Made by a program: the position numbers and the translations under genes
In this document: positions 29,813 to 42,007 of the stretch, one piece after another
Layout of the letters: the number at the start of each line of letters is the position of its first letter
How positions within the stretch are numbered: the first letter of the stretch is position 1
Assembly: GCF_014217785.1 (NCBI RefSeq)
Contig: NZ_CP048814.1
Span: forward strand, 310,001-374,000
DNA: 64,000 bases
Direction of reading: 5' to 3'
From: Rhodococcus triatomae
GTDB taxonomy: Bacteria > Actinomycetota > Actinomycetes > Mycobacteriales > Mycobacteriaceae
Notes under the pieces: generated by a model
Seen by the model: only the letters and a program-made list of their open reading frames with translations
What the model was told of the DNA's origin: nothing
The model's database searches: none

Positions 29813-29929
29813 ATGACTGGTTTCGGGGTACAGCTCGTGGCACGCCGCCACGTCGACCTCAAGCGCGTGTGCAGCTGCACCTGTACACGCTGTACCTGTC
29901 TGCGCTGCGCCGCTCAGCCCGCCGCGTAG
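29813..29929 (+). CDS. Cysteine-rich leader peptide upstream of sirA (HVDL type)
   Basis: A 38-codon frame ending 130 nt before sirA. The peptide contains RRHVDLKRV followed by CSCTCTRCTCLRC, i.e. six Cys at positions 20, 22, 24, 27, 29 and 32. The R-R-H-V-D-L core is the hallmark of short actinobacterial leader peptides found before sulfur genes, and poly-Cys short frames are known as cysteine-responsive attenuators in mycobacteria (both from memory). ATG 29813 lies 7 nt after a CACAAT hexamer and has no ribosome-binding site, so translation is probably leaderless. An in-frame ATG at 29804 would overlap the -10. Ribosome stalling when Cys-tRNA is scarce should raise sirA-cysH-cysD-cysN expression. 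Confidence 0.8.
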   Translation: MTGFGVQLVARRHVDLKRVCSCTCTRCTCLRCAAQPAA

Positions 29930-37276: not shown

Positions 37277-37325
37277 GGTGAAGGTGGCCTTCGACCGGTC
37301 TGAGGAGCCGAAGGCCACCTTCACC
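37277..37325. terminator. 17-bp inverted repeat at the sodA/cysA junction
   Basis: Arms 37277-37293 and 37309-37325 are perfect complements (GGTGAAGGTGGCCTTCG and its reverse) with a 15-nt loop. The right arm includes the cysA stop codon. It serves both convergent genes. Confidence 0.7.
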
Positions 37326-38499
37326 CGCGGGTGGCGGAGACTCCGGGGGTGGTGTCGGTGGTGGTGGTGGTGTCGGTGGTGGTGGCGTCGGTGGCAGTGT
37401 CCGGGGTGGCGGACGACGCGGCGTGCCGTCCGCCGGTGCCGTCCTTCGGATCACCGGCGTTCGAACCGGCGGCGCCGGACGCGTCGGCGGGATTCGCCAC
37501 CACGGCACGTTCGGGCAGATCGGGGGCGCGGGTGGCGCGGGCGAAGACGGTCTCGCCCTCACGCAACCCCAGAGCGGCACTGTCACCGCGGGTGACCTGG
37601 GCCGAGAACCGCTCGCCGGTGGCCTCGTTGCGCAACTCGACGCGCACCTCGAAACCGAGGTGGACGACTCGCTCGACCGTCGACCGGGTCACCCCGAGCG
37701 ATTCGGCCGTACCCGATTCGGCAGCGAGCGCGAGATCCGCGGTGCGGCCGAGGCGAATGTCGTGCGGCCGGACGAGTTGACCGTTGAGCTTGGCGACGGA
37801 GCCGAGGAAGGACATGACGAAGTCGTTGACCGGGCGGTCGTACAGGTCCGCGGGCGGACCGACCTGTTCGATCCGGCCGTGGTTGAGTACCGCGATCCGG
37901 TCGGCGACGTCGAGCGCCTCCTCCTGGTCGTGCGTGACCAGCACCGTCGTGACGTGCACCTCGTCGTGCAGGCGCCGCAGCCACGTTCGCAGGTCCGCCC
38001 GCACCTTCGCATCGAGCGCACCGAACGGCTCGTCCAACAGCAGCACCTGCGGATCCACCGCGAGCGCGCGGGCGAGGGCCATCCGCTGCCGCTGGCCGCC
38101 GGAGAGCTGTGACGGGTAGCGGTGCTGGAAGCCGTCGAGACCGACGATCTCGAGCAACTCGTTGACCTTCTTGTCGATCTCACGCTTGGGCCGCTTGCGG
38201 ATCTCGAGCCCGAACGCGACGTTCTTGCGCACGGTCAGGTGCTTGAACGCCGCGTAGTGCTGGAAGACGAAGCCGATGTCCCGCTTCTGCGGCGAGACGT
38301 CGGTGACGTCCTTGCCCGCGATGGACACGGTGCCGTCGTCGAGGGATTCGAGGCCCGCGATGGCACGCAGGAGCGTCGACTTCCCCGACCCGCTGGGACC
38401 GAGCAGCGCCGTCAACGACCCCGAAGGGATGTCGAGCGTCACGTCGTCCAGGGCTGCGAAGGACCCGTAGTTCTTGCGCGCGCCGGTCACGGTGATCAT
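37321..38499 (-). CDS. cysA: Sulfate ABC transporter ATP-binding protein
   Basis: Energises sulfate import. The 392-residue protein has Walker [10 protein letters not shown], Walker [13 protein letters not shown], signature [15 protein letters not shown] and switch-loop [13 protein letters not shown], then a regulatory TOBE-type domain. The C-terminal tail is low-complexity Ala/Asp/Thr ([11 protein letters not shown]), encoded by GGT/GTC-type microsatellite DNA near 37353-37395. Its ATG overlaps the cysW stop. The order subI-cysT-cysW-cysA is as in mycobacteria. Confidence 0.95.
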
Positions 38500-39302
38500 G
38501 TCGTGCTCCTCTTACGGTCGAGCAGGGTCATCAGCAACAGTGTGAGCAGCGCGATGCCCATCAGCAAGGTGGCGGCGGAGTAAGCGCCGAAGGTGTTGTG
38601 GTCATCGATGTAGCGGGAGTGCACGAGCAGGGTCAGTGTCTGCGAGACGCCGGGGAACCCGGACGACACCATGATCACCGCACCGAACTCGCCCAGCGAG
38701 CGGGCGACGGTGAGGACGACGCCGTAGGTCAGGCCCCAGCGGATCGCGGGGAGCGTGATCCGCCAGAACGTCTGCCATTTGTTGGCCCCGAGCGTCGCGG
38801 CCGCCTGCTCCTGCTCCTCGCCGATCTCGTGCAGGACGGGCTCGACTTCCCGGACGACGAACGGCAGGGTCACGAAGATCGTCGCGAGCACCATGCCGGG
38901 AAGGCCGAAGATGACCCGGAATCCGAGCGATTCGATGCCGCCGAACCACCCGTTGACGCCCCACAGCAGGATCAGGGACACGCCGACGACGATCGGCGAG
39001 ACGGCGAACGGCAGGTCCACGACCGCCTGCAGCGCGCCGCGGCCCGGGAACCGCCCACGCACCAGCGCCAGCGCGGTGACGATGCCGAACACCACGTTGA
39101 TCGGGACCACGATGGCCACGATGATCAACGAGAGGTTGAGTGCGGAGATCGCGGCGGGCGTGGAAATGGACTCGATGAACGCCCCGATGCCGTTCTCGAA
39201 CGTGCGATAGAGGATCACCAGGATCGGCACGACGAGCAGGCCGAAGAGATACAGCAGCGCAACGGTGCGCAGGGAGATGCGGGTGGCCGGAGAGAGCTTC
39301 AC
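38496..39302 (-). CDS. cysW: Sulfate ABC transporter permease CysW
   Basis: A 268-residue membrane protein with six predicted membrane segments. The EAA loop that docks on CysA is [29 protein letters not shown]. It pairs with CysT as the heterodimeric channel. Its stop overlaps the cysA ATG and its start overlaps the cysT stop, so the permeases and ATPase are translationally coupled. Confidence 0.95.
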
Positions 39303-40177
39303 TTCGCCTCCTCCTGCCGACGCTGGCCGCGAGTGGCGAACAACCGCAGCACGAACAGCGTCACGAACGCGATGAGCAGCAGTGCCACCGACACCGACGC
39401 CGCGGCACCGGGCCGGTCGATCTCGATCTGCTGTTGGATGTACTGCGAGGCGACCTGCGTGTCACGGGGGATGTTGCCACCGATCAGCACGATCGACCCG
39501 TACTCGCCGATCGCCCGCGCGAACGCCAGACCCGCACCGCTGATGACGGCCGGCGTCAGGGTGGGCAGCACGATGCGCCGGAAGATGGTGCCGTTGGAGG
39601 CACCGAGCGAGGCCGCGGCCTCCTCCACCTCGCGGTCGAGTTCGATGAGCACCGGCTGCACCGAGCGGACCACGAACGGCAGGGTCACGAAGGCCAGCGC
39701 CACGACGAGGCCCGCCCGGGTGGCGTTGAGGTGGATGTCGATCGGGCTCTGCGGTCCGTACAGGGACAGCAGCACGATGCTCGCCACGATCGTCGGCAAC
39801 GCGAAGGGAAGGTCGATGAGCGCGTTGACGATCCGCTTCCCCGGGAACTCGTCGCGGACCAGCACCCACGCGATCAGCGTGCCCATCACCACGTTGACCA
39901 CCGCCACCACCGCAGACACCATGACGGTGATCTGCAGCGAGGCCAGGGCCACGGGCGAGGTGACGGCATCGATGAAACCGCTGATCCCGTTCTCGAACGA
40001 TGCCACCGTGAGCGCCGCGAGCGGCAGCAACACGATCACACTCAGCCACAGCGCGGCGATTCCGATTCCCAGTGGCCCGACCGCGCCGGTGACCTTGGCG
40101 ATCTTCCGGCGTGGCGGGCGACGGCGCGGGGGCGGCGCCGGGGCGGCGCCCCCGTCCGTCGTCAGTACGTCACTCAC
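39299..40177 (-). CDS. cysT: Sulfate ABC transporter permease CysT
   Basis: A 292-residue permease with an N-terminal cytoplasmic basic tail (PPPRRRPPRRKIAKV) and six membrane segments. The EAA loop is EVEEAAASLGASNGTIFRRIVLPTL. Forms the transmembrane channel with CysW. It lies 37 nt after subI, which has a tandem duplication at its 3' end in that gap. Confidence 0.95.
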   Translation of the reverse strand: MSDVLTTDGGAAPAPPPRRRPPRRKIAKVTGAVGPLGIGIAALWLSVIVLLPLAALTVASFENGISGFIDAVTSPVALASLQITVMVSAVVAVVNVVMGTLIAWVLVRDEFPGKRIVNALIDLPFALPTIVASIVLLSLYGPQSPIDIHLNATRAGLVVALAFVTLPFVVRSVQPVLIELDREVEEAAASLGASNGTIFRRIVLPTLTPAVISGAGLAFARAIGEYGSIVLIGGNIPRDTQVASQYIQQQIEIDRPGAAASVSVALLLIAFVTLFVLRLFATRGQRRQEEAK

Positions 40178-40214: not shown

Positions 40215-41243
40215 TCAGTTCGAGGCGTTGTCGTAGATCACCGCGATGGATCCGGAGCCCTGCGCGAACAGCTCCGCATCGACCTGGGTCCAGCCGCCGA
40301 AGTCATCGATCGTCCACAGCTTCTCGGGCTCCGGGAACTTGTCGGTGAACTCGTCCGCGACAGCGGGGTCGACGGGACGGAAACCGGCCTCGGCCCACAG
40401 CCGCTGACCGTCCTCGGTGTACAGGAAGTCACGGAACGCGTTGGCCTTGTCCAGGTTCCGGCTGTTCGACAGCACCGCCACCGGGTTGTCGATCTTGAAG
40501 GTGTCCGGCGGCGTGACGTGCTCGACCGGCTCGCCGTTGCCCTCGATGAACAGCGCCTCGTTCTCGTAGCTGAGCAGCACGTCTCCGGTGCCCTGCAGGA
40601 ACGCCTCCGTCGCCTCGCGCCCGGACTTCGGCTGAATCTTGATGTGGTCGTTGACCAGCGCCGTCACGTAGTCGAGACCGGCCTGCGGGTTCTCGCCACC
40701 GTTGCTCTTCGCCGCGTACGGGGCGAGCAGGTTCCACTTCGCCGACCCGGAGCTGAACGGGTTCGGGGTGACCACCTCGAGCCCGGGCTGCAGGAGGTCG
40801 TCCCAGTCCTGGATGTTCAGCGGATTCCCCTCGCGGACCACGATGGTCACGACCGAGCCGAACGGAATGCCGTTGTAGGCATCCTGATCCCAGTCGGCGT
40901 CGACGAGCCCGGCATCGACCAGCCGGGTGATGTCGGGCGTCACCGAGAAGTTCACGACGTCGGCCTCCGCGCCGTCGCGAACCTTGCGGGACTGGTCGCC
41001 GGACGCCCCGAAGGACGGCTGGACGCGGACACCCTCGCCCTCGTCGGTGCCGTTGAACGCCGGGATGATCTTGTCGAAGCCCGGCTTCGGGACGGCGTAC
41101 GCGTAGAGATTGAGCGTGCCCGCACTTCCGTCGGCGGAGCTCTCCTCTCCCACGGTGTCGCTGGCGCCTCCGGCGCATGCCGACAGGGTGAGAGCACCCA
41201 CGGCGGCAACAGCGGTGAGGAGGAGACGGGAACGGCGCTTCAT
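40215..41243 (-). CDS. subI: Sulfate-binding lipoprotein SubI
   Basis: The extracytoplasmic sulfate receptor of the ABC importer, 342 residues. The signal peptide ends with lipobox LSAC (Cys23). The mature part has the class II sulfate-binding protein layout: LNLYAYAVPKPGFDKIIPAF, PSFGASGDQSRKVRDGAEADVV, PFSSGSAKWNLLAPYAAKSN and LLSYENEALF. ATG 41243 with AGGAAGG upstream is chosen over an upstream frame extension that lacks signal-peptide logic. It is preceded by a 163-nt structured leader and a peptide frame ending Cys-Cys-Cys. Confidence 0.94.
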   Translation of the reverse strand: MKRRSRLLLTAVAAVGALTLSACAGGASDTVGEESSADGSAGTLNLYAYAVPKPGFDKIIPAFNGTDEGEGVRVQPSFGASGDQSRKVRDGAEADVVNFSVTPDITRLVDAGLVDADWDQDAYNGIPFGSVVTIVVREGNPLNIQDWDDLLQPGLEVVTPNPFSSGSAKWNLLAPYAAKSNGGENPQAGLDYVTALVNDHIKIQPKSGREATEAFLQGTGDVLLSYENEALFIEGNGEPVEHVTPPDTFKIDNPVAVLSNSRNLDKANAFRDFLYTEDGQRLWAEAGFRPVDPAVADEFTDKFPEPEKLWTIDDFGGWTQVDAELFAQGSGSIAVIYDNASN

Positions 41244-41406
41244 GGCAGTAGCCTTCCTGAGCGGACCGGAGGTCCGGGATGGTCGAGGATCGAGCGTTCG
41301 CGACAGGGACCGGCAGATTCCGGTTCTCGCGAGGGGATGCGTGTGCCTGTGGGGACTCGAGACAGAGTTCACCCGTGCGGGCGGGGATCACGCGCGTGAG
41401 CTGCGA
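41244..41406 (-). promoter_or_regulatory. Structured 5' leader of subI (attenuator candidate)
   Basis: Several stems occur between the leader peptide and subI: TCACGCGCGTGA palindrome (41388-41399) 7 nt after the peptide stop; a composite stem 41298-41332 with TCGCGA outer arms and ACCGG/CCGGT inner arms; and CGGACC-3-GGTCCG (41262-41276), close to the AGGAAGG site. These could switch with ribosome stalling on the upstream Cys codons. Confidence 0.5.
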
Positions 41407-41484
41407 TCAGCAACAACAGTCGATGTCTGCGACAGCAAGCATGCCGACAGCGATCAACGCCAGTTCATGGCGGACCTCGGGCAT
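41407..41484 (-). CDS. Leader peptide ending Cys-Cys-Cys upstream of subI
   Basis: A 25-codon frame with the sequence MPEVRHELALIAVG followed by MLAVADIDCCC and TGA; the three Cys codons TGT-TGT-TGC are the last before the stop. It lies 163 nt before the sulfate receptor gene on the same strand. There is no Shine-Dalgarno; a TACAGT hexamer at 41507-41512 would start transcription about 15 nt upstream. A run of Cys codons in a short frame ahead of a sulfate importer is what a cysteine-responsive attenuator should look like. It has no sequence similarity to the HVDL-type leader before sirA, so it is a different class. Confidence 0.7.
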   Translation of the reverse strand: MPEVRHELALIAVGMLAVADIDCCC

Positions 41485-41567
41485 GGTGGCTGCAGACACG
41501 CGGTGGACTGTAGCAAGCTTCGAGCGAGTCTTCCAATCCGGACAGCGGGGACGTTCCGCCGACAGGT

Positions 41568-41645
41568 TCAGCGGGTGAGCAGCCAGGCGACGATCACGAG
41601 CAGGATCAGCGCGATCAGCGCAAGGGTGACGCGTGAGCGGGGCAT
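41568..41645 (-). CDS. 25-residue single-span membrane protein
   Basis: The frame MPRSRVTLALIALILLVIVAWLLTR is a basic N-terminus, one hydrophobic span and a Thr-Arg end. GGAGG lies 10 nt before ATG 41645, and the gene starts 2 nt after the stop of the next small membrane protein, so it is probably coupled to it. Being short, it could be a false positive, but the hydrophobic run and ribosome site are good. Function unknown. Confidence 0.55.
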   Translation of the reverse strand: MPRSRVTLALIALILLVIVAWLLTR

Positions 41646-41647
41646 GG

Positions 41648-41839
41648 TCAGTGTTCCTCCGTGTTCGTCGCGTCCCGCCGCAGCAGGATCAGGACCGTCG
41701 CGAGTGCACGATCCAGGAGCCAGGCGAGCGCTCCACAGACCGGAAGCGCCACGAGCAGCACCAGGGCCACCTGCGGTACGAACGGAAGCCCGGCGAGCCA
41801 CAGCTCGGCCCCGTCCCACCATCGCGCGATCTGTTCCAC
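41648..41839 (-). CDS. Small membrane protein (Rv2401A-like)
   Basis: A 63-residue protein (VEQIARWWDGAELWL start) with two hydrophobic segments, LPFVPQVALVLLVALPVCGAL and LDRALATVLILL, separated by a short AWLL turn, and a charged C-terminus (RRDATNTEEH). The position upstream of the sulfate importer matches a small mycobacterial membrane protein gene. GTG 41839 is the only plausible start in the frame. No known function. Confidence 0.6.
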   Translation of the reverse strand: MEQIARWWDGAELWLAGLPFVPQVALVLLVALPVCGALAWLLDRALATVLILLRRDATNTEEH

Positions 41840-42007
41840 GCCCGTCACTCTATCCGGCGTCGGCGAACCACCTCCGGCCGGTTTCGGCCACCGACACGCG
41901 CTTCGTGACCCACAATGGGAAGCTCGGACGGGATGCGCAGTAGCGGGTCTTCGGCAGACCCGGGCACCGTCGAATCGAAACCGTCGAATCGAAGGAGGGC
42001 GGCCGCG

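Follow-up and report, generated by a model that had tools for sequence, protein, structure and literature searches.

A cysteine-ended frame ahead of a sulfate importer

Upstream of the sulfate importer genes of Rhodococcus triatomae lies a short frame that ends in three cysteine codons. Its position raises the question of whether it is a regulatory leader peptide and, if so, which of its elements would sense cysteine and how the signal would reach subI. The locus was analyzed within a stretch of 64,000 nucleotides (NZ_CP048814.1, positions 310,001 to 374,000), referred to here as the window. The original prediction described a cysteine leader peptide ahead of the importer, namely the frame at 41484-41407 (minus strand), which reads MPEVRHELALIAVGMLAVADIDCCC and closes with TGT TGT TGC TGA. 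Reading of the sequence confirms this frame, and the match to the NCBIfam model NF042937, together with subI-cysT-cysW-cysA downstream, bears out the leader before the importer. The leader stop and the subI ATG (41243, minus strand) are 163 nt apart. The features of the locus, in window coordinates, are as follows.

41507..41515, minus: extended -10 promoter element TGC-TACAGT, 7 nt before the GTG, read in the sequence
41407..41499, minus: Ms4533A-family leader peptide frame, GTG start, 30 codons plus TGA, MSAATMPEVRHELALIAVGMLAVADIDCCC; NF042937 match, conserved before subI; the frame at 41484-41407 is its 3' part
41458..41472, minus: small predicted RNA hairpin CGCCA-TGAAC-TGGCG in codons 10-14, from pairing across leaders
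41410..41418, minus: putative sensor Cys codons TGT TGT TGC (codons 28-30); codon 28 (41416-41418) is the invariant TGT
41244..41406, minus: 163-nt spacer from leader stop to subI; sequence not conserved, no sign of a conserved fold
41252..41258, minus: subI Shine-Dalgarno sequence AGGAAGG; AGGAAGG or GAAAGG is kept in relatives
40215..41243, minus: subI, sulfate ABC transporter substrate-binding protein (TIGR00971, 178.2 against a cut-off of 155.5)
39299..40177, minus: cysT, sulfate permease subunit (TIGR02139, 262.7 against 246.1)
38496..39302, minus: cysW, sulfate permease subunit (TIGR02140, 340.1 against 329.1)
37321..38499, minus: cysA, sulfate transporter ATP-binding protein (TIGR00968, 403.2 against 342.75)
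29813..29929, plus: HVDL leader MTGFGVQLVARRHVDLKRVCSCTCTRCTCLRCAAQPAA, before a sulfite/nitrite reductase gene (NF042936 leader_Ms4527A, 46.1 against 45; NF042934, 27.4 against 27)

The leader frame is far beyond chance, since only 12 in-frame Cys-Cys-Cys-stop ends occur in the whole 4.77 Mb genome and, of 30 subI loci sampled from the bacterial family, 28 carry a relative of the frame ahead of subI. The 11 other such ends in the genome bear no likeness to the subI leader. A chance frame is ruled out by 125 aligned relatives and the fixed promoter box described below.

The leader belongs to a known family

The 30-residue leader scores 56.9 bits (cut-off 31) with NF042937, the 'Ms4533A family Cys-rich leader peptide', and the alignment spans profile positions 1-30 of 30; no other NCBIfam model matches it up to an E value of 10. 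The leader has no match in a Pfam search, and the sole Rfam match in the window is a tRNA elsewhere. The family takes its name from an M. smegmatis frame; the names Ms4533A and Ms4527A were not found in a literature search. Besides the full-length match, the leader shares with the family its start type and, in the relatives examined, the downstream gene. It ends in CCC, whereas the usual ends family-wide are CC, CR, and CCR directly before the stop, and no feature excludes membership. We conclude that the subI leader is the Rhodococcus orthologue of a catalogued, already known, cysteine-sensing leader of the Ms4533A family.

Within the bacterial family, 125 of 251 genomes score above the NF042937 cut-off, whereas none of 14 control genomes does so; a match of at least weak strength occurs in 22 of the family's 31 genera. 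When 200 genomes were drawn from the whole order, 18 scored above the cut-off, only one of them outside the bacterial family. A subI-like start was found after 119 of the 125 aligned leaders. In some genomes (genus g10 and others; e.g. G009:C1:1119562 and 1121394, G183, and G163) there are tandem subI pairs, each with its own Ms4533A leader; that is, the leader was duplicated together with subI.

Cysteine attenuators of the same kind are also on record in mycobacteria. Shell 2015 (PMC4633059) notes leaderless frames with Cys ends ahead of cysA2 and nirA and proposes that they are cysteine attenuators, and Canestrari et al. 2020 (doi 10.1111/mmi.14498), as summarised in PMC9031893, PMC9094748, and PMC13236596, demonstrated the regulation of downstream genes in M. 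smegmatis by contiguous Cys codons of leaderless short frames. The proposal that this Cys-terminal type was undescribed must therefore be given up. The R. triatomae leader has in common with these polycysteine frames the leaderless arrangement, the terminal Cys codons, and a cysteine or sulfur operon downstream. They differ in that contiguous terminal Cys codons, although present here, are not general across the Ms4533A family, many of whose leaders have no Cys run, and in that direct pairing of the leader with the subI Shine-Dalgarno sequence is not predicted at this locus.

Start codon and promoter

The in-phase upstream extension of the frame reaches a GTG at 41499, five codons upstream of the ATG at 41484 that had been proposed as the start. 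For the start-codon alignment, 126 distinct leaders from the same bacterial family were placed on their core, and one that was out of register was omitted, leaving 125. In these leaders the codon aligned with 41499 is GTG in 110 cases and ATG in 15. GTG 41499 is thus the conserved start, and likely the true start of this leader, judging from the alignment. A TANNNT box was found 6-8 nt 5' of the start codon in 125 of 125 leaders, with the TG extension in 123; controls at shifted positions in the same leaders gave a mean of 2.1 and a maximum of 15. This constant placement of the box before GTG or ATG strongly suggests that the transcript is leaderless and opens with the start codon.

A single invariant TGT codon

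The original prediction took the run of Cys codons to be the key element, and here the comparison leads to a different conclusion. Counted from codon 28 to the stop, the 125 leaders contain one Cys in 39 cases, two in 75, three in 9, and four in 2; among the 39 single-Cys leaders, one carries an additional Cys at codon 27. Across the alignment, the conserved item is therefore one Cys, not a run. In most leaders the stop lies 0-3 codons after the codon-28 Cys. Because a lone Cys codon so often serves as the sensor, a screen for Cys runs would overlook roughly one in three Ms4533A leaders.

Codon 28 is TGT in all 125 leaders. At these loci, 113 of 119 lipobox Cys codons of subI are TGC, and 18 genes of the window use TGC and TGT in a ratio of 46:13. 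The preference extends to the later Cys codons of the leaders, after codon 28 (83 TGT versus 16 TGC), and to the Cys codons of the Ms4527A leaders (66 TGT versus 32 TGC). A preference for the wobble-read TGT would fit a sensor tuned for early stalling. Its full invariance at codon 28 suggests such tuning or else an RNA contact; no RNA contact that would account for it was found in this analysis.

Proposed mechanism

Comparison establishes that the frame is real, where it starts and where its promoter box lies, that codon 28 is invariably TGT, that the peptide is under selection, and that the leader is linked to subI. From this sequence evidence, we consider it probable, at about 0.8, that the leader is an Ms4533A-family leaderless cysteine-codon attenuator of subI-cysT-cysW-cysA, and ribosome stalling on Cys codons, as originally proposed, is kept as the best explanation. 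Transcription would start at or adjoining GTG 41499, and a ribosome initiating at the 5' end of the transcript would read 27 codons before it meets the sensor TGT (codon 28), which is followed by TGT TGC TGA. With Cys-tRNA plentiful, the ribosome would reach the stop, and downstream expression would be held down. With cysteine short, it would stall at the Cys codon or codons, the local RNA state would be altered, and subI would be expressed, either because its ribosome-binding site is freed or by another route such as Rho. We infer that cysteine shortage is the signal by analogy with published M. smegmatis work on the same kind of leader. In one M. smegmatis leader, stalling reportedly frees the ribosome-binding site of the downstream gene. 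Two points speak against the attenuator: the fold predictions are without release of the Shine-Dalgarno sequence, and the conserved peptide body exceeds what a codon counter needs. They are considered in turn, beginning with the peptide.

Selection on the peptide body

The ratio pN/pS is 0.15 in codons 10-28 versus 0.57 in codons 2-9 (59 independent pairs; Fisher p 1.2e-10), and the peptide body RHxLALIAVGxxAVADxxC is, by this comparison, under amino-acid selection. V23 is retained in 41 of 41 non-redundant leaders through four different codons, and A22 and A24 are likewise each encoded by four codons. Because these three positions use all four codons, it is the residue that is kept there rather than the RNA.

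Part of the conservation of the body is nonetheless that of an RNA hairpin predicted from pairing across leaders. In 60 distinct leaders, CGCCA and TGGCG are paired in 99% of cells, and codons 10 and 14 hardly vary at the third position. One pair of this hairpin is swapped from C-G to G-C in five leaders, all from genus g29. The covariation is modest, because these five swaps, confined to a single genus, amount to about one event. Pairing of columns 24-27 with 45-48, which would form a wider hairpin, was rejected; it holds in the window and fails across the family. The leaders of genus g29 (L045, L049, L074, L128, L149-L151, L153, L155, and L157) are also distinctive in other ways: they mostly have an ATG start and have Gly in place of the Arg of RH, in addition to the swapped hairpin, and their Cys runs often extend back to codon 27.

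The selected body raises the alternative that the leader is a cysteine-dependent nascent-peptide sensor. That is, RHxLALIAVGxxAVADxxC would act in the exit tunnel as an arrest peptide and sensitise the ribosome at the single, invariant, wobble-read UGU near the stop, so that passage of the Cys codon, or termination just after it, would depend on cysteine or Cys-tRNA; the longer Cys ends would be an elaboration, with no poly-Cys counter. TnaC and similar arrest peptides combine a conserved nascent peptide with sensing near the stop codon. The subI leader resembles them in this logic only, arrest being putative here, and has no sequence relation to them. The alternative is favored by the contrast in pN/pS, by the codon diversity at V23, A22, and A24, by the sufficiency of a single Cys in 39 of 125 leaders, and by the closeness of the Cys to the stop in most leaders. 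It is weakened by the contribution of the hairpin to the conservation and by the invariant TGT, which points to decoding or RNA and not to the residue. A mutational study of another leader of the same kind is also said to place the emphasis on the Cys codons, which counts against reading by the nascent peptide. We regard this alternative as unlikely, both in its general form and in the specific form with a single UGU. What the comparison adds is that, across many genera, a lone Cys codon, always TGT, frequently acts as the sensor and follows a selected peptide; codon counting and nascent-chain reading by cysteine attenuators can therefore be told apart by a direct test.

Amino-acid selection on the body would also suit a small protein that has an independent function and stands in the operon by chance. 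The frame's fixed place where the transcript presumably starts ahead of subI, its fast-changing N-terminus, the invariant TGT codon, and the variable tail all argue against this explanation, which we consider highly improbable.

The spacer and the route to subI

The attenuator reading further calls for a route from the stalled ribosome to subI. The original prediction spoke of a structured 163-nt leader, and folding does not sustain this: in the window, leader and spacer have a predicted energy of -96.9 kcal/mol, compared with -95.9 +/- 4.7 in shuffled sequences (z -0.21), and the spacer is not conserved within the genus, with no conserved spacer sequence or fold across 18 Rhodococcus loci. 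Over 60 loci, leader and spacer show a small folding excess (-114.6 versus -110.6 kcal/mol in shuffles, p 5e-6). At these 60 loci there is no significant extra occlusion of the Shine-Dalgarno sequence relative to shuffled spacers (0.266 versus 0.317 unpaired, p 0.23). In predicted folds with a ribosome masked at codon 28, the subI Shine-Dalgarno sequence is not consistently freed, the mean unpaired fraction being 0.289 in the free and 0.303 in the stalled state. Direct pairing of the leader with this sequence was rejected as a candidate, since it is predicted at 2% on average. No intrinsic terminator hairpin with a U-run, of the trp or his type, was seen on reading of the spacer sequence. These fold predictions do not contradict the published work, which concerns another locus.

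A variant that keeps the same Cys sensor places its output at Rho: the stalled ribosome would cover a Rho-loading stretch just past the stop, and the subI ribosome-binding site would not be the point of control. The spacers are rich in C and poor in A (mean C 0.38, G 0.27, and A 0.12); C exceeds G in 111 of 119 loci, and the first 15 nt past the leader stop have C 0.41 and G 0.23. The lack of a conserved spacer sequence or fold is also easier to reconcile with Rho than with a fixed hairpin switch. Against this variant, the stretch preceding the leader, which served as the comparison region, likewise has more C than G (0.33 versus 0.29). We hold a Rho-dependent output to be rather unlikely.

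Other cysteine leaders and neighboring frames

The presence of two unlike Cys leaders 11 kb apart was predicted correctly, and they fall under separate NCBIfam models, NF042937 and NF042936. Compared with the HVDL type (NF042936 leader_Ms4527A and NF042934 cis_reg_atten), the subI leader is similar in being a Cys leader before sulfur genes that is enriched in TGT; it differs in its peptide and matches neither model. NF042934 also marks MTSEGFTGAWARRHVDLGRLSASICRR, before a gene for an ABC-type lipoprotein, and MTSRTESAERALWCRRHVDLCRTSSGMCPN, elsewhere in the genome. The two further HVDL-type leaders of this genome, at G000:C1:3063860 (L160) and G000:C1:1701572 (L161), have a single Cys each, which follows the HVDL motif or lies close to the end of the peptide, and precede the ABC-type lipoprotein gene and another metabolic gene. 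The genome thus contains at least four Cys leaders of these kinds, as expected of a known system. The abstract of the study by Canestrari and colleagues is said to report six such loci and to propose a ribosome-directed regulon, which is also the regulon idea of the original prediction.

Just 5' of the leader promoter is a hydrophobic frame of 25 residues, MPRSRVTLALIALILLVIVAWLLTR (window 41568-41645, minus), with GGAGG 10 nt before its ATG. It has no NCBIfam match, and near-identical copies occupy the corresponding position in at least a dozen of the 30 subI loci. A small predicted membrane protein of about 66 residues (MTGVEQIARWW...; window 41648-41848, minus), also without a match in NCBIfam, ends adjoining this frame, as if the two formed one operon.
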